Origin: Gemmatimonadota bacterium
Lineage (GTDB): Bacteria > Gemmatimonadota > Gemmatimonadetes > Palauibacterales > Palauibacteraceae
DNA length: 64,000 nucleotides
Reading direction: 5' to 3'
NCBI GenBank assembly: GCA_022826685.1
Contig: JAJDUL010000049.1
Span: forward strand, 62,001 to 126,000
In this document: positions 5,782 to 13,581 of the stretch, in pieces
Position numbering within the stretch: position 1 is the stretch's first letter
Layout: the number at the start of each line of letters is the position of its first letter
Position numbers and translations under genes: made by a program
Notes under the pieces: model-generated
What the model was told of the DNA's origin: nothing
Databases searched by the model: none
Seen by the model: only the letters and a program-made list of their open reading frames with translations

Positions 5782-6249
5782 TCAGTCGATCGGGACGACG
5801 TCGAGTTCCGTCGTGATGTCGATGCAGCCGGAAAGCGTTCGGTAGACCGGACACTTCGGCGGATGGGCCTCGAACGCGCGCCGGATCGCATCGGCGTGCG
5901 CCTCATCCGCCTGCAGGAGGTATCGGGCCCGGATCCGCCGGATCACGAGCACGCCCTCGTCCGTCTCGACCTCGCCCTCCACGTTAGCCACCAACCGTCC
6001 CTCATCCGCCTTGACACCGCGCGCTTCCAGCGCGCCCCCGAAGGTTCCGGCCAGTCAGCCGCCGGTCGCGGCGATGACATAGTCGAGTGTCGTGGCAATG
6101 TCGCGGTTGTCGCGAACGCCGTAGTACTCGGCGACTGCGGAATGCACGCCGAAATCGACCGGCGCATCCGTGGCCGGGATCTCCGCCGTGCGATATGGAC
6201 CCTTCTGCCGCACGATCTTCACGTGCGAGTGGTAGACGACTTCACTCAT
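5782..6249 (-). CDS. OsmC family peroxidase-like protein, probable selenoprotein (in-frame TGA = Sec65)
   Basis: Read through one in-frame TGA (6057-6055), this gene encodes 155 residues covering the whole OsmC fold. The N-terminal half ends ...DYVIAATGG, the TGA is codon 65, and the frame continues LAGTFGGALEARGV... to a second redox cysteine, C133, in PPKCPVYRTL. In OsmC/Ohr proteins the codon-65 position is the peroxidatic cysteine, so TGA replaces exactly that residue. Both halves keep family-like sequence without any frameshift, and a SECIS-like hairpin follows the TGA. The ATG at 6249 overlaps the Nudix stop as ATGA, so translation is coupled. OsmC proteins reduce organic hydroperoxides in the cytoplasm. 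The alternative is a nonsense-mutated pseudogene. Selenocysteine machinery (selA, selB, selC, selD) lies outside this window, so the call is inferred. Confidence 0.75.
6019..6057 (-). promoter_or_regulatory. SECIS-like hairpin with its UGA codon
   Basis: On the minus strand, 19 bases after the TGA (6057-6055), a perfect GCGCGC/GCGCGC stem (6035-6030 with 6024-6019) closes the five-base loop TGGAA (6029-6025). The apical loop starts 25 bases after the TGA and has G as its second base. Bacterial SECIS elements have a stem-loop directly downstream of the UGA, with a short loop about 16-37 bases away and a G in its first two positions, so this fits. Confidence 0.65.
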
Positions 6250-6842
6250 TGGCCGGTTCTCTCCGTGATGATGTCGAGGAAGTTCATGACGACGCGGTGC
6301 GTGAGCCCCCAGATGGCGTCGCCCTCGTACAAGATGGAGGGCCACACATGTTCGTGGCCACCATCGGGATAGCGGACTTCCGAGCGCAGTGCCGGGTCAC
6401 GCAGCGCGCGGAGCGGAGCCCACACATGATACTGCACTTCGGCGTTCGTCGAGACCCGTGCGCCCCCCCCGTGCCACGCGACGAAGGGGGAGATGAGGAT
6501 CGACGGGATCCGGCGCGTCACCGGGTGCAGGTCGTCGAGCCGTCCGAGGAACCCGTTGCGCGGAAGATCGAGCCCCACCTCCTCGCGCAACTCGCGGCGC
6601 GCCGTCTCCAAAAGATCCGCGTCCGCCGCGTCCCGGTGTCCGCCGGGAAGCGCCATATGACCGGACCACGGGTCGCCGGGGAGCTCCGCCCGACGGACGA
6701 AGAGCACTTCCAGGTCGCGATCGCGCGGACGGACCACGAGCGTCACGGCCGCGTGCCGCTCCGCCGCCCCGGGATCGACCTCGGTGTGACCCGCCGTGAC
6801 CAGCCGATGAGCGACCCGTACCGCGCTCCAACCCTTGCTCAC
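6246..6842 (-). CDS. Nudix hydrolase, CoA-pyrophosphatase-like
   Basis: The protein has 198 residues. The Nudix box runs from about G68 to L91 (GGHRDAADADLLETARRE followed by LREEVGL), with the extra spacing and preceding GHMALPGG seen in CoA pyrophosphatases of the NudL type. Those enzymes cut CoA or similar nucleotide pyrophosphates. The GTG start at 6842 overlaps the rsgA stop as GTGA, and its own stop overlaps the OsmC start as ATGA, so the three genes are translationally coupled. The exact substrate is inferred from the motif pattern. Confidence 0.85.
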   Translation of the reverse strand: MSKGWSAVRVAHRLVTAGHTEVDPGAAERHAAVTLVVRPRDRDLEVLFVRRAELPGDPWSGHMALPGGHRDAADADLLETARRELREEVGLDLPRNGFLGRLDDLHPVTRRIPSILISPFVAWHGGGARVSTNAEVQYHVWAPLRALRDPALRSEVRYPDGGHEHVWPSILYEGDAIWGLTHRVVMNFLDIITERTGQ

Positions 6843-7750
6843 CGGCCCTTCTCCGCCTCGTCGAGGAGGCGCAGGTAGCTCTCCAGCCGCCGCCGCGCGA
6901 TCGTCCCAACCTCCACGGCCGCGCGAACCGCGCAGTCCGGCTCCACCCGATGCCGGCAGTCCGCGAACCGGCAGGCGTCGCTCATCGCGGCGATCTCGAC
7001 GAAGCCCCCCGACAGCTCCGCCGGATCCAGCTCCCACAGCGCCAGGTACTGCAAGCCGGGCGTGTCCGCCACATAGCCGCCCCCCGGATATCGATAGAGC
7101 GCCGACGCCACGGTCGTATGCCGCCCCCGACCCCGCCGCTCGCTGATCTCGCCCACACGCAGGTCGAGTTCCGGCACGAGTGCGTTCAACAGGCTCGACT
7201 TCCCCACGCCCGACTGCCCGCTGAGCACCGTGATCCGCCCTGCGAGGCGTCCCGAAAGCGCCTCCAGTCCCGCCCTCGATTCGACGCTCGTCCGCAGCGT
7301 TTCCACGCCGAGCGCCGCGTACTGCTCGAGGCCGTCTCCGGGCACAGGCTCCGCGAGGTCCGTCTTGTTCACGACGAGGAAGGCGTCGATGCCGCTCAGC
7401 GCCGCGAGCGCGAGCAGTCGGTCCACCATGAGGAAGTCGGGATCGGGCGCCGTCACCGAGACGACGACGGCGACCTGGTCCACGTTCGCCACGATCACCT
7501 GCTCCCGCCGCTTGGAGACGCCGTGCCGGGAGAGCGCGCCGCTTCGCGCGCGAAGCCGAACGATCCGCATCTCGTCGCCGGCGCGTTCCAGCTCGACGAG
7601 GTCGCCGACCGAAACGATGCGCGAGTCCGTCCGCTTCAGGCGCCCCCGCAGCGAGGCCCGGACCACCGTCTTGGAATCGTCGACGTGATAGACCCCACCC
7701 GCGATCCGCAGCACGCGGCCAACGGTAGCGGAGGGGCCGCCGGAGCTCAC
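6839..7750 (-). CDS. rsgA: Ribosome small subunit-dependent GTPase RsgA
   Basis: The protein has 303 residues, normal for RsgA. After an N-terminal OB fold come the circularly permuted GTPase motifs: G4 NKTD at 128-131, the P-loop GQSGVGKSS at 178-186 and G3 DTPG at 229-232. The C-terminal zinc knuckle uses C260, C265, H267 and C273. RsgA binds the 30S subunit and hydrolyses GTP during late maturation. The GTG at 7750 is 34 bases after the sufU stop, so it probably rides on the suf transcript. The following Nudix gene overlaps it by four bases. Confidence 0.95.
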   Translation of the reverse strand: MSSGGPSATVGRVLRIAGGVYHVDDSKTVVRASLRGRLKRTDSRIVSVGDLVELERAGDEMRIVRLRARSGALSRHGVSKRREQVIVANVDQVAVVVSVTAPDPDFLMVDRLLALAALSGIDAFLVVNKTDLAEPVPGDGLEQYAALGVETLRTSVESRAGLEALSGRLAGRITVLSGQSGVGKSSLLNALVPELDLRVGEISERRGRGRHTTVASALYRYPGGGYVADTPGLQYLALWELDPAELSGGFVEIAAMSDACRFADCRHRVEPDCAVRAAVEVGTIARRRLESYLRLLDEAEKGR

Positions 7751-7784: not shown

Positions 7785-8282
7785 TCACCCGGAGCCGCCG
7801 TCGGCGTCCGTCCCGTCGCCCAGCTCCTCGAGACAGTTCCACGCCAGCAGTGCGCACTTGATGCGGACCGGAAACTTCGAGACCCCCGCCAGCGTGCGCA
7901 GATCGCCGAGGTCGTCGTCCGACAGCAGCGCTCCGTCTCCGTGCAGGAGGTGCGTGAACTTGCGGGAGAGTTCCAGCGCCTGCTCGAGCGACTTGCCCCG
8001 CACGCGTCCCGTGAGCATCGACGCCGACGCCAGGCTGATCGAGCACCCGCGGCCCAGGAAGCGCGCCTCGGCGATGGTCCCCCCTTCCACGCGCAACATG
8101 AGTTCGATCACGTCGCCGCAAAGCGGGTTGTTCATCGTGATCGCGTGCGTGGCTCCGTCCAGCTGCCCCTTGTTCCGGGGTTTCCGGTAGTGATCGAGGA
8201 TGACTTCCTGGTACAGCTGATTGAGCGACGAAGGGATCTCCCGATCAATCGTCCCGGGCGTCGTCGAACGGGGTTCGATCAT
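7785..8282 (-). CDS. sufU: SufU iron-sulfur scaffold / sulfur-transfer protein
   Basis: The protein has 165 residues. The three SufU/IscU cysteines are C55 (NNPLCGD, with D57), C80 (GRGCSIS) and C143 (RIKCALL), and the insertion around residues 90-130 between C80 and C143 is the SufU-type one. In organisms with this gene order SufU accepts persulfide from SufS and passes it to SufBCD; it replaces SufE, which I do not see here. Its start is four bases after the sufS stop, consistent with a SufS-SufU pair. The final residues (DGTDADGGSG) are a low-complexity tail. Confidence 0.93.
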   Translation of the reverse strand: MIEPRSTTPGTIDREIPSSLNQLYQEVILDHYRKPRNKGQLDGATHAITMNNPLCGDVIELMLRVEGGTIAEARFLGRGCSISLASASMLTGRVRGKSLEQALELSRKFTHLLHGDGALLSDDDLGDLRTLAGVSKFPVRIKCALLAWNCLEELGDGTDADGGSG

Positions 8283-8286
8283 GGCT

Positions 8287-9618
8287 TCAGGCGATGCCGC
8301 CGAAGACTTCGGCTGCCATGGCGAGCCCGTCGCACAGCACGTCGACCTCCCGCGGCGAATTGTAGAAGTAGAAGCTCGCCCGGGCCGTACTGCTGATCCC
8401 GTAGTGGTCCATCAGCGGCTGGTTGCAATGGTGCCCCGCCCGGATCGCGATTCCTCGCTGATCGAGGATCGTGGAGAGGTCGTGCGGATGTATGTCGCCG
8501 TAGGTGAAGGAGAAGACCGCGGTCCGCCCTTCGCGCGGGCCGTACAGGTGGAGCCCTTCGATCTCGTCGAGCCGCTCGAAAACGGCGCGCTTCAGGGTGT
8601 CTTCGTGCGACGCGATCGCCTCCGACCCGAGGTCCGCGAGGAAGCGGGCGGCTTCGCCGAAGCCCACGACGCCCGAGATGTTGGGCGTTCCGGCCTCGAA
8701 CTTGTGGGGAACCTTCGCCCAGGAGGATCGCTCGAGCTTCACGTCCGAGATCATCTCGCCCCCGCCCTGATACGGGGGCATCTCCTCCAACAGTTCTCTC
8801 CTGGCCCACAACGCTCCGACGCCGGTCGGGCCACACATCTTGTGGCTGCTGAACGCGTAGAAGTCGCACCCGATCTTCGCCACATCGGTCAGCATGTGGG
8901 GCGCGGCCTGCGCTCCGTCGATGAGCGTCAGCGCGCCGGCGGCGTGAGCGCGGTCCACGATCTCACGGACCGGATTGACGGTCCCGAGGCTGTTGGAGAC
9001 GTGCGTACAGGCGACCAGCCGGGGACGCCCCTCGAGGAGCCGGTCGTAGTCGTCCAGATCGAGCGTGCCCTCGGGCGTGACGTCGACGAAACGGAGCTTG
9101 CACCCCGTCCGGCCAGCGAGCAGTTGCCACGGCACGAGGTTCGAGTGGTGCTCCATCTTCGTGAGCACGATCTCATCGCCCGCGCCGATGGACGCGTCCC
9201 CCCAACTCGACGCGACGAGGTTCACCGCCTCCGTCGTGCCGCGCGTGAAGACGATCTCCGCCGGGTCTCTCGTCCCCGCATGCGCTGCCACGGAACGACG
9301 CGCGCCCTCGTAGGCCTCCGTCGCCTCCGCGCTGAGCTGATGCACGCCGCGGTGCACATTGGCGTGCTCCTCACGCAGATAGCGCTCGACCCGCCTCAGC
9401 ACGCGGAGCGGCTGCTGTGAACTCGCCGCGTTGTCGAGGTAGGCCAGGGGGTGGCCGTGGACTTCCCTTGAGAGAATGGGGAACTGGGCCCGGATCGCCG
9501 CGAGATCCCAGCCGCCTTCCTCCGAAGCCTCACCCGCATCGCGGCTTCCCGCCGCCTCCCGGGGACGCTCGGACGCCAGGATGCCCGTTGCCTGCTTCGT
9601 ATCCGTCATCTCCGCCAT
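8287..9618 (-). CDS. sufS: Cysteine desulfurase SufS (selenocysteine lyase family)
   Basis: The protein has 443 residues and is a class V aminotransferase-fold PLP enzyme. The PLP lysine is K260 in SSHKMCGPTG and the persulfide-forming cysteine is C398 in RAGHHCNQ. The N-terminal 37 residues are a poorly conserved extension; an ATG at 9609 is an alternative start. SufS takes sulfur from cysteine for cluster assembly, and enzymes of this group also release selenium from selenocysteine. It lies between the Rieske gene and sufU in the operon. Confidence 0.95.
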   Translation of the reverse strand: MAEMTDTKQATGILASERPREAAGSRDAGEASEEGGWDLAAIRAQFPILSREVHGHPLAYLDNAASSQQPLRVLRRVERYLREEHANVHRGVHQLSAEATEAYEGARRSVAAHAGTRDPAEIVFTRGTTEAVNLVASSWGDASIGAGDEIVLTKMEHHSNLVPWQLLAGRTGCKLRFVDVTPEGTLDLDDYDRLLEGRPRLVACTHVSNSLGTVNPVREIVDRAHAAGALTLIDGAQAAPHMLTDVAKIGCDFYAFSSHKMCGPTGVGALWARRELLEEMPPYQGGGEMISDVKLERSSWAKVPHKFEAGTPNISGVVGFGEAARFLADLGSEAIASHEDTLKRAVFERLDEIEGLHLYGPREGRTAVFSFTYGDIHPHDLSTILDQRGIAIRAGHHCNQPLMDHYGISSTARASFYFYNSPREVDVLCDGLAMAAEVFGGIA

Positions 9619-9646
9619 CGGGCTCCGGTCCTCGGCTGGGTCCCGC

Positions 9647-9958
9647 TCAGGAGAGGTCGACCTGGATGTCGTCCCCGTCGATCCTCACGTCGAAGCGCCG
9701 GACCGGCATGACCGCCGGGAGCGCCCTCGGCGCGCCGGTCGCCAGATCGAAACGCGCCCCGTGGAGGAGGCAGGTGATCTCCCCTGCCTCGACCTCGCCG
9801 TCCGAGAGCGGGAACTCCTCGTGGGAGCAGCAGTCCTCGAGCGCGTACACCTCGCCTCCGCTGCGGATGAGAGCGATCGCCAGGTCCCCGGCCATCACCC
9901 CGCACGTTCCATTCTCCGGCACATCGTCGACCTTGGCGACCGTGACGAATCGGCTCAT
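9647..9958 (-). CDS. Rieske-type [2Fe-2S] ferredoxin of the suf operon
   Basis: This 103-residue single-domain protein carries the Rieske ligands as CSH (C44, H46) and CLLH (C63, H66). It has no membrane anchor, so it resembles the small ferredoxin subunits of dioxygenases rather than the cytochrome bc1 subunit. The ATG at 9958 overlaps the sufD stop (ATGA). Rieske genes occur inside suf operons of several phyla. A role as electron donor or as a cluster-bearing partner in assembly is inference. Confidence 0.9.
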   Translation of the reverse strand: MSRFVTVAKVDDVPENGTCGVMAGDLAIALIRSGGEVYALEDCCSHEEFPLSDGEVEAGEITCLLHGARFDLATGAPRALPAVMPVRRFDVRIDGDDIQVDLS

Positions 9959-11286
9959 AGCCCGATCTTCTCCTCGATCGCTTCGCGTACGCGCGCGCGC
10001 ACCCCTTCCATCGGAAGACGCCCCAGCACCTCATCGAAAAACCCGAACACGAGCAGGCGCTCGGCCTGGCGCCGGGTGAGGCCGCGGCTCATCAGATAGA
10101 AGAGTTGCCCGTCCTCCACCTGTCCGATCGTCGCCCCGTGCGAACAGCGCACATCGTCGGCCTCGATCTCGAGGTTGGGAAGCGCGGAGGCATGAGAGCC
10201 CTCGCTCAGCAGCAGGTTGCGGTTCGTCTGATAGGCGTCCGTGAGCTGGGCTCCCTTGTCGACCCGGATCAGCCCGCGGAAGACGCTCGACCCGGCATCC
10301 GTCAGCGCTCCCTTGAAGAGCAGATCGCTGTGCGCGTGCGGCGCCGCGTGATGCTGCAGCGTGTGATGGTCGAAGTGCTGGTCGGAGTCGCCGAACCAGA
10401 GTGCGAGCATCTCGCTGTCGCTCCCGGGCCCGTCGAGACGGCTTGTGACGTCCGCCCGCGAAAGGTCGCCCCCGAGCGCGACGTTGAAGGTCACGACGCG
10501 TGCGTCGCGGCCCGCGGTGACGTGCTGCGTCGAGAAGCGCTTCACGCCGCGGCCGAAGCGCTGGAGCGCGACGTACTCGATCCCCGCGTCCCCCTCCCCC
10601 GTGATCGTCGCCCCGTGAAGCGAGACCGTCTCGGCATCGAGGTCGTCGGAGAGGAACTCGTCGATGACCGCGGCCCGCGCGCCGGACTCCGCGTACACGA
10701 ACGAATGTGCGGAGGAGAGCGTCCCCGCCCGCTCGACGATGTGGAACGCGTGGATCGGCGCCGGCATCTCCACGCCGCGCGGAACGTAGAGGAAGTAGCC
10801 TCCGCCCAGGAGAGCGAGGTGCAGCGCCCAGAGCTTCTCCTCCGCGGGGCCCGGCTGCGCCTCGAGCAGCGCCCGCCTCAGCACCTCCGGATGCCGATCC
10901 GCCGCGTCCCGGATCGAAGACAGGACCACGCCGCTCCGCGCCACTTCGGGTTCGAGTTCGAGGTGCGCGACCCGGCCCTCCCGCAGCACGACGACGCCCG
11001 CGCGCTCCCCGGAGCGTCCAAGCACCTCGCGGACATCCGCCGACAGCGCTTCCGCCGTCGCGGGCGTCGGGACCACCGGAGTGAGCGCCTCGAAACCGAC
11101 CTTCCCGAGGTCAGTGTACCGCCATTCCTCCGACTTCTTCGTCGGCCAGGGAAGGGCGGTGAACCGCTCCCATGCGGCGGCCCGTGCCCCCGCGAGCGCT
11201 TCCGGCTCCGTCAGCGCGCCGGCAAGCGTGTCGAAATCCGCCGCGGCCAGCGTCGACTCCGCCGGCCCGGCTGTCATCGTGCTCAT
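9955..11286 (-). CDS. sufD: SufD, Fe-S cluster assembly protein
   Basis: The protein has 443 residues. It has the SufD N-terminal helical region with the [14 protein letters not shown] signature around residues 47-60, the right-handed beta-helix core, and the C-terminal conserved region with [12 protein letters not shown] and FYLMSRGL. SufD partners SufB and SufC in the scaffold complex and is needed for iron entry. Its start overlaps the sufB stop by four bases and its stop overlaps the Rieske start, so the order is fixed by translational coupling. Confidence 0.95.
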
Positions 11287-12698
11287 CCGACCGATCCCTC
11301 CATCTCCAGCTCGATCAGCCGGTTCAGCTCGATCGCGTACTCGAGCGGCAACTCCTTGGCCACCGGCTCGATGAAGCCGCGCACGATCATCGCCATCGCC
11401 TCCGCCTCGTCGAGCCCGCGACTCATCAGATAGAAGAGCTGCTCGTCGCCGACCTTCGAGACCGTGGCCTCGTGTCCGATGGACGCCGTGTTCTCGTCGA
11501 TCTCGATGTAGGGATAGGTGTCCGTCCGCGACGTCTCGTCGAGCAGCAGGGCGTCACACTCGACGTTGGACTTCGCGCCCTCGGCGCCGTCGTACACCTT
11601 GCACAGTCCGCGGTACGAGGAGCGCCCGAGCCCCTTCGAGATCGACTTCGAGGTGATCTGGGATGTCGTGTTGGGGGCGGCGTGGATCACCTTGCCGCCC
11701 GTGTCCTGGTGCTGGCCGTCCCCCGCGTACGCGATGGAGAGGATCTCGCCGTGCGCCCGCTCTCCGACCAGATAGCACGACGGATATTTCATCGTGAGTT
11801 TCGAGCCCAGGTTCCCGTCGAGCCACTCCATCTTCGCCTCCTCGTGCACGAGCGCCCGCTGCGTGACGAGGTTGTACATGTTGTTCGACCAGTTCTGGAT
11901 CGTGGTGTACCGGAAGCGCGCGCCCTTCTTGACCACGATCTCGATGACGCCGGAGTGGAAGGAGTCCGTCGAGTAGACCGGCGCCGTACAGCCCTCGATG
12001 TAGTGGGCTTCGGCCCCCTCTTCGCAGATGATGAGGGTGCGCTCGAACTGGCCCATGCGCTCCGCGTTGACCCGGAAGTAGGCCTGGAGCGGGATCTCCA
12101 CCTTCACCCCCTTCGGGATGTAGACGAACGACCCGCCCGACCACACGGCCGAGTTGAGCGCCGCGAACTTGTTGTCGTGCGTGGGAACGACGGTCGAGAA
12201 GTACTGCCGGAACAGATCGGGGTGCCTGGCGAGCCCATCCTCGATCGACTCGAAGATCACACCCTGCTCCTCCCACTGCTCCTTCAGCGAGTGGTAGACC
12301 ATCTCGGACTCGTACTGGGCCCCGACCCCGGCGAGCGCCTTACGCTCCGCCTCCGGGATCCCGAGCTTCTCGAACGTGTCCTTGATCTCCTGCGGGACGT
12401 CGTCCCAGGACCGCTCCATCTGGTCCTGCGGCTTCAGGTAGAAGTAGATCTCGTCGAGCGTGTCCTCGAGCTTCGAGAGATCGCCCCCCCACTTCGGCAT
12501 CGGCTTGGAGTAGTAGACCTCGAGCGCCTTGAGTCGGAACTCGAGCATCCAGTCCGGCTCTTCCTTGTGGTGCGAGATCTGTCGGACGATGTCGCTGGAG
12601 AGACCGGGGACGGCCTTGAAGACCGGCTTGTCCTCCGTGACAAATCCGTACTTGTACTCGTCGAGTCCGAGTTCGGTGATCGTCTCGTTCCGGGGCAT
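11283..12698 (-). CDS. sufB: SufB, Fe-S cluster scaffold
   Basis: The protein has 471 residues, the usual length for SufB. Visible hallmarks are the [15 protein letters not shown] region, the [14 protein letters not shown]-like segment (here TVVPTHDNK), and the C-terminal [19 protein letters not shown]. SufB carries the cysteines that accept sulfur and build the nascent cluster in the SufBC2D complex. The ATG at 12698 lies 30 bases after the sufC stop. A long plus-strand open frame across sufC-sufB is only a GC-driven shadow. Confidence 0.97.
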
Positions 12699-12728
12699 GT
12701 CTGTTCCTTCCTTTACGGCTTTACGACG

Positions 12729-13502
12729 TCAGACCGCCGCCACCGCCCGGTGGAGCCAGTCGTAACCCTCCGCCTCCAGCTTGTCGGCGAGCGAGGCGCC
12801 GCCGCTCTCCGCGATTCGGCCCGCCATCATCACGTGTACTCGATCCGGCCGGATATAGTTCAGGATCCTCTTGTAGTGCGTGATCAGCAGGACCCCGAGC
12901 GCCTCGTCGGCTTCGGAGAGGCGGTTCACGCCGCTGGCCACGACCTTGAGCGCATCGATGTCGAGTCCGCTGTCCGTCTCGTCCAGGACCCCGAGCGCCG
13001 GCCGAAGCACGGCCATCTGCAGGATCTCGTTTCGCTTCTTCTCACCGCCGGAGAAGCCGTCGTTGACGTACCGGGCCGCGAAGCCCGGATCCATCCTCAG
13101 CATCTCCATCTTCTCCGTGAGCGTGCGCTGGAACCCGAACACATCCATCTCCTCGCCCTCGCCCAGCCGCGAGTTCACGGCCGTCCGCAGAAAATTGGCG
13201 ATCGAGACCCCCGGGATCTCCGCGGGATACTGGAAGGCGAGAAAGATCCCCGCGCGGCTCCGCTCATCGGGCTCCAGCTCGAGGACGTCCTCTCCCTCGA
13301 ACAGGATCTCGCCGGCCGTCACCTCGTAGGCGGGGTGGCCGGCGATGACCTTGGCGAGCGTGCTCTTGCCGGAGCCGTTGGGGCCCATCAGGGCATGCAC
13401 CTCGCCGCGCTGGACGTCCAGATCGACGCCGCGCAGGATCTCCCCGTCCTCACCGTCGACCTTCGCCCGGAGTCCGCGTATCGACAGAAGCGGTTCTGAC
13501 AT
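12729..13502 (-). CDS. sufC: SufC, ATPase of the SUF complex
   Basis: The protein has 257 residues and is an ABC-type ATPase: Walker A at 40-48 (GPNGSGKST), Q-loop near 91, ABC signature SGGEKKR at 151-157, and Walker B leading into [11 protein letters not shown], the usual SufC form. ATP hydrolysis drives the SufB/SufD rearrangement. The ATG at 13502 has AGAGGA about seven bases upstream. It is the first gene of the directon, about 95 bases downstream of the inferred transcription start. No SufR or IscR-type regulator gene is adjacent. Confidence 0.96.
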
Positions 13503-13581
13503 TCGTGTCCTCTTGCGTTGCAAAAGGCCGGTCACCCAGGGGCGCCGGCCTGGAAACACAGCAATCAATTCGAGATGAACC

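Follow-up and report, generated by a model that had tools for sequence, protein, structure and literature searches.

Is the TGA triplet in the middle of an OsmC-like gene of a Gemmatimonadota bacterium a stop signal, or is it read as selenocysteine? The gene is on the minus strand of the window, i.e., the whole stretch of 64,000 nucleotides that was analysed (Table 1). Translation of positions 6249 to 5782 gives 155 codons followed by a terminal TGA, and the single internal TGA (6057-6055) is codon 65. An earlier note on this DNA, made from the sequence alone, had described a frame open on both sides of this triplet, with the flanks AATGG and LAGTFGG and an intact Cys133, all of which is borne out by the translation. 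It had also proposed a probable selenoprotein, and the sequence tests named beforehand were run and turned out in favour of that proposal. Without read-through, the list of open reading frames contains only fragments of the gene, one of 96 amino acids that ends at 6055 and one of 70 amino acids that starts at 5994, as had been predicted of a gene-finder. Annotation that lacks a matching selenoprotein model would call the gene two fragments or a pseudogene. The Pfam OsmC profile PF02566 matches the read-through protein with 44.8 bits (E 1.8e-11), above the gathering cut-off of 27.5. The match comprises residues 55-148 and therefore spans the TGA.

Table 1. Positions of the osmC-like gene, its signals and its upstream neighbours in the window
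Feature	Positions	Strand	Remarks
Predicted OsmC-domain selenoprotein gene	5782..6249	(-)	155 residues, Sec at codon 65; terminal stop TGA 5784-5782
In-frame TGA, predicted selenocysteine (U65), at the peroxidatic-cysteine position	6055..6057	(-)	conserved TGA; Cys codon in selA-less relatives
Codon of C133 (second redox cysteine, in the motif CPV; presumably the resolving residue)	5851..5853	(-)	TGT; invariant in 24-row alignment
Predicted bacterial SECIS hairpin GCGCGCU-GGA-AGCGCGC	6019..6035	(-)	7 bp; loop GGA 6028-6026; 26 nt after TGA
Nudix hydrolase gene, immediately upstream	6246..6869	(-)	start uncertain
rsgA GTPase, same directon	6839..7750	(-)	ORF list
suf directon: sufC, sufB, sufD, Rieske protein, sufS, sufU	7785..13568	(-)	ORF list

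Relatives were collected by a protein search of genome contigs with search patterns that left out the TGA codon. The 40 loci found are 96% down to 50% identical to this gene and come from Gemmatimonadota, Chloroflexota, Actinomycetota, Calditrichota, Poribacteria and Desulfosarcina; at the position of codon 65, all 40 have TGA. Within Gemmatimonadota, a match with an E value of 1e-20 or lower is present in 109 of 395 genomes, and each of the matches listed has an internal TGA. A larger comparison comprises 111 OsmC loci, i.e., this gene, its paralogue, the 40 relatives, 29 Gemmatimonadota matches and 40 further loci. There is exactly one TGA per matched stretch, which in 111 of 111 is at the codon of the peroxidatic cysteine (Cp), and Gly-Thr is found three and four residues past it in every locus. 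On this comparison of sequences, the recurrence of TGA at the same codon excludes a chance origin of the internal TGA. Since some of the 111 loci represent the same genome reached twice, the hairpin counts given below are based on 71 distinct 42-mers.

The coding sequence was compared with that of nine relatives, seven close and two distant. Among the seven close relatives, few amino acids differ on either side of the TGA: dN is 0.007-0.065 and dS 0.22-0.31 in the upstream part, and the corresponding values for the downstream part are 0.011-0.027 and 0.08-0.26; in the distant relatives, L092 and L011, silent sites are near saturation. Random disruptions, which the earlier note had named as evidence against its proposal, are not the rule. 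Among the Gemmatimonadota matches listed, a further stop is present only in G101 (2 TGA) and G434 (1 TGA, 1 TAG). In the Actinomycetota copy of genome G1267 (L230, G1267:C1:3821200-3822500) the match is split over three stretches, across frames, and this copy may therefore be a pseudogene with a frameshift, or else reflect an error of assembly.

The genome has a complete set of the selenocysteine genes whose presence had been named as a check: selA (498 bits), selB (370 bits) and the tRNA-Sec gene selC (79.7 bits, anticodon TCA) are on contig C69, and selD (369 bits) is on contig C35. ARAGORN detects no tRNA gene in the window itself. The selD gene (L221, G000:C35:13378-14298) displays an in-frame TGA within the motif GUACK, and thus the enzyme that supplies the selenium is probably a selenoprotein too. 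Among 41 genomes, those of this gene and its 40 relatives, 40 have selB above the cut-off, compared with two of 14 control genomes. The tRNA-Sec gene is likewise over its cut-off in 40 of 41, at a threshold that also fires in five of 14 controls; at 55 bits or more, the count by rows is 39 of 41. Within Gemmatimonadota, selA (E 1e-60) is found in 102 of the 109 genomes that have the gene and in 180 of the 286 that lack it (Fisher 7.6e-11, not corrected for kinship). At the thresholds used, selA was not detected in seven of the 109 Gemmatimonadota and two of 31 Actinomycetota TGA-form genomes, these being draft genomes.

Outside Gemmatimonadota, some homologues have no stop in the matched region. 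TGA is present in 30 of 31 Chloroflexota matches, and the remaining one (G553) is uninformative on codon 65, as the match begins after that codon. Of the 31 Desulfobacterota matches, 27 contain TGA and four are free of stops. The latter are weak (E 6.6e-13 to 5.2e-12), and the three that were read, L196-L198, have Cys at the codon. Actinomycetota have six stop-free genes that cover the codon, in four genomes (G1044, G1108, G1119, G1173), and all six display TGC or TGT at this position. None of these four Cys-form genomes has selA, compared with 29 of 31 TGA-form genomes (Fisher 2.9e-4). Thus the proposed check on homologues at codon 65 yields TGA, or a cysteine codon in four genomes without selA. 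In a tree of 81 hand-picked rows whose root is unsettled, the six Cys genes group as a single clade next to most of the branch with the motif U-L-x-G-T (U, selenocysteine), and the other Sec branches fall outside this grouping. Because the six genes are a single clade, one event may underlie the whole selA contrast. The family provides a natural experiment, with the Sec form where selA is nearly always present and the Cys form in four selA-less genomes, and with both forms at hand the advantage that selenium gives to an enzyme of the OsmC type can be tested directly.

The bacterial SECIS (bSECIS) model, as given in PMC13188914, has a stem of 4-16 bp, a loop of 3-9 nt that has a G among its first two bases, and a distance of 16-37 nt after the UGA. 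The predicted hairpin starts at base 22 counted after the first base of the TGA, and its 7 bp, GGA loop and 26 nt spacing are within these limits. All seven pairs are found in 64 of the 71 distinct sequences, six pairs in three, and two to three pairs in four, which belong to one clade. In two of the stem pairs, the second base of an Ala or Val codon is matched with the third base of the codon opposite. The codon pairs at these places are GCG/GCG in 40 sequences, GCA/GTG in 17, GTG/GCA in 10 and GCC/GCC in four. Where Ala is opposite Val (GTG), its codon is the pair-restoring GCA in 27 of 27 distinct sequences; this codon represents 6.3% of Ala codons in nearby open reading frames and 7.9% at the remaining Ala positions within the genes themselves. 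Sequences were counted here, not events, and six changes among the four codon states are required on a tree of 88 proteins. The pattern of codon pairs shows that the predicted hairpin is kept by compensating codon changes. As a putative recoding hairpin with base pairs that are preserved through rare codons, this element is a further part of the natural experiment that the family provides.

A second set comprises 37 TGA genes (15 from Chloroflexota, 21 from Actinomycetota and one from Desulfobacterota), a few of which repeat loci of the first set. The full seven pairs are present in 29 and not in eight; TGA-bearing OsmC genes without the full 7-bp hairpin are L171, L202, L205, L206, L208, L214, L215 and L218. 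The single Ala opposite Val in this set is encoded by GCG, which forms a G-U pair, so that the GCA rule applies to 27 of 28 cases across both sets; GCA is also found opposite an Ala codon in four genes. In the GCC/GCC clade (L142, L145, L146, L147) the usual register of the hairpin is lost. A GGGC-GGA-GCCC structure can form there at 18 nt from the TGA, and is possibly a shifted SECIS. In the six Actinomycetota Cys genes, three to six of the seven pairs remain, and in three of these genes neither of the first two loop bases is G. Folding energy was also considered but is unconvincing as SECIS evidence by itself, as stability is not exceptional relative to synonymous redraws: for L001, L012 and L002, respectively, 122, 100 and 81 of 1000 redraws were as stable, and for L142 the number was 799. 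Rfam models gave nothing above gathering scores over the window.

The conserved TGA, the selenocysteine machinery, the compensated hairpin and the presence of Cys in selA-less relatives together indicate that the gene is almost certainly a selenoprotein gene, with selenocysteine inserted at codon 65, and not a pseudogene. A nonsense mutation that splits an ordinary osmC gene, or a sequencing error, would account for the two fragments that result if the TGA is not read through, but the chance of this is negligible given a TGA at the same codon in all 111 loci, which come from several phyla, purifying selection on either side of it, extra stops only in G101 and G434 among the matches listed, and full Sec machinery in the genome. 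It is very improbable as well that the TGA is read as another residue without selenium, be it by TGA = Trp recoding, by near-cognate read-through or by insertion of Cys via tRNA-Sec. In favour of such a reading, the chemistry of read-through is invisible in DNA, and the replacement of Sec by Cys is known from other systems. Nevertheless, the hairpin agrees with the bSECIS model, its pairing is less complete among the Cys forms, and the selA-less relatives carry Cys and not Trp. In addition, the relatives terminate with TGA, TAG or TAA, and TGA terminates this same gene; a recoded genome was rejected. By the proposed selenocysteine mechanism, SelB and the Sec-tRNA(UCA) would decode the in-frame UGA, directed by the hairpin downstream of it.

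What function might the protein have? An AlphaFold2 model (pLDDT 91) retrieves OsmC/Ohr structures in Foldseek, the best being 2onf at 1.3e-9, with 1lql, 1ml8 and 1nye also found. Identity to these solved proteins is 9-19% in the 50 structure matches shown; profile searches against PDB sequences give weak matches, with E values of 0.0014 and higher, and phmmer found no match to PDB sequences at 0.001. An alignment of 24 rows shows no variation at R20, D56, U65 and C133, or at T69 (position U+4); C142 is not conserved. The active site of Xylella Ohr has Arg19, Glu51, Cys61 (Cp) and Cys125 (the resolving cysteine, Cr), and that enzyme is reduced by a lipoylated protein, according to PMC5962072. 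Compared by sequence positions, the protein described here has the same layout of Arg, acidic residue, Cp and Cr, with similar spacing. A selenium-based organic hydroperoxidase is proposed because of the OsmC/Ohr fold and these matching residues, and peroxidase chemistry is likely on both counts. The selenolate of Sec65, held by Arg20 and Asp56, would attack an organic (lipid) hydroperoxide, Cys133 would resolve the selenenic acid, and a lipoylated or thioredoxin-like partner would reduce the Se-S bond. The explanation in its entirety, a UGA codon recoded to selenocysteine in an OsmC/Ohr-type hydroperoxidase, is regarded as highly probable.

The gene is last in the order sufC-sufB-sufD-Rieske-sufS-sufU-rsgA-nudix-osmC, and the stop codon of the Nudix gene overlaps the osmC start as ATGA at 6249-6246. 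The earlier note had placed the gene at the end of a suf directon, and the gene order is as described; the arrangement is a local feature of the eight nearest relatives only, however. In these (L003-L010), which include the named Candidatus Palauibacter, the order from sufB to nudix is kept, sufC being beyond the flank examined. At the remaining 32 loci, of which several are short pieces of contigs, no suf linkage was seen. Weak paralogue matches are present elsewhere (SufC, 28%, on L018; ADH, 27%, on L011), and an all-against-all comparison of open reading frames displays recurring neighbours in Longimicrobiales-like loci. As a local feature, suf linkage says little about function, and the assignment of a function from gene neighbourhood was rejected, the linkage being confined to L003-L010. 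These data also bear on whether the gene encodes a selenoprotein that is not a peroxidase but another OsmC-fold thiol/selenol redox protein, for example one tied to suf in persulfide or Fe-S repair. Such a role is unlikely, yet it deserves some weight in view of the low identity to solved OsmC/Ohr proteins, the weak PDB profile matches and the place of the gene at the end of the suf directon in the nearest relatives; against it are the 32 loci where suf linkage was not seen and the invariant counterparts of the Ohr Arg, acidic, Cp and Cr positions.

The literature on OsmC-like selenoproteins goes back to 2005 and includes the Sargasso Sea and GOS surveys; the published ones have a UxxT motif, according to PMC1088965, PMC2398784, PMC9312934 and PMC13188914. 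The statement in the earlier note that Sec-containing OsmC-like proteins had been described is correct, but the published motif is not that of this gene, which reads U-L-A-G-T. The corresponding NCBIfam model is NF041052 (OsmC_like_Se), and the published UxxT family is presumably the same as NF041052: its TGA-bearing member L233 (153 bits) reads U-L-L-T, i.e., UxxT. Both this family and the present protein have an OsmC domain with Sec, here predicted, at the Cp position. Filing the gene under NF041052 was nonetheless rejected, as the score of the protein (P0001) is 12.2 bits, where the cut-off is 95, and its motif differs from that of L233. The second OsmC paralogue of the genome, L002, scores 19.5 bits, and BLASTP of L233 against the present protein gives 20.8 bits. 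None of the NCBIfam models reached its cut-off with this protein. As judged from sequence, the gene is a member of a branch separate from the NF041052-type OsmC selenoproteins. A literature search, with most subscription journals outside its coverage, found no paper that names this U-L-A-G-T branch, and the main text of a recent selenoprotein paper, PMC12013277, does not mention OsmC.

Two further Sec branches can be compared with the gene. The paralogue L002 (G000:C53:67692-68138), with the motif U-M-L-G-T, has TGA at the same Cp codon and the hairpin at the same place, but is only 32% identical and has a GCA/GTG stem where this gene has GCG/GCG. A third branch, U-M-M-G-T (U-M-T-G-T in L179), comprises L172-L195, L199, L231 and L232, mostly from Desulfobacterota with some from Actinomycetota. 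It too has the OsmC domain and the TGA codon, but is a separate clade (99/96 in the 81-row tree), and the stretch past its TGA does not encode the GGALEAR hairpin. A joint reading, which is tentative and somewhat doubtful as a whole, is that U-L-x-G-T, U-M-L-G-T and U-M-M-G-T are the Sec branches of an OsmC selenoprotein group without a curated model of its own, distributed in Gemmatimonadota, Chloroflexota, Actinomycetota and Desulfobacterota. The group would have Sec by default and a Cys clade where the Sec machinery was lost, and would function as a selenium-based lipid hydroperoxidase that in Palauibacter-like bacteria is co-expressed with Fe-S cluster assembly.

With respect to well-known families, the protein scores 17.7 bits with TIGR03562, below the cut-off of 85.8. 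It has in common with the OsmC/Ohr hydroperoxidases (PF02566) the Pfam match, the fold matches and, at the level of sequence positions, the layout of Arg, acidic residue, Cp and Cr. The difference is at the peroxidatic position itself, where the hydroperoxidases have cysteine and this protein is predicted to have selenocysteine.
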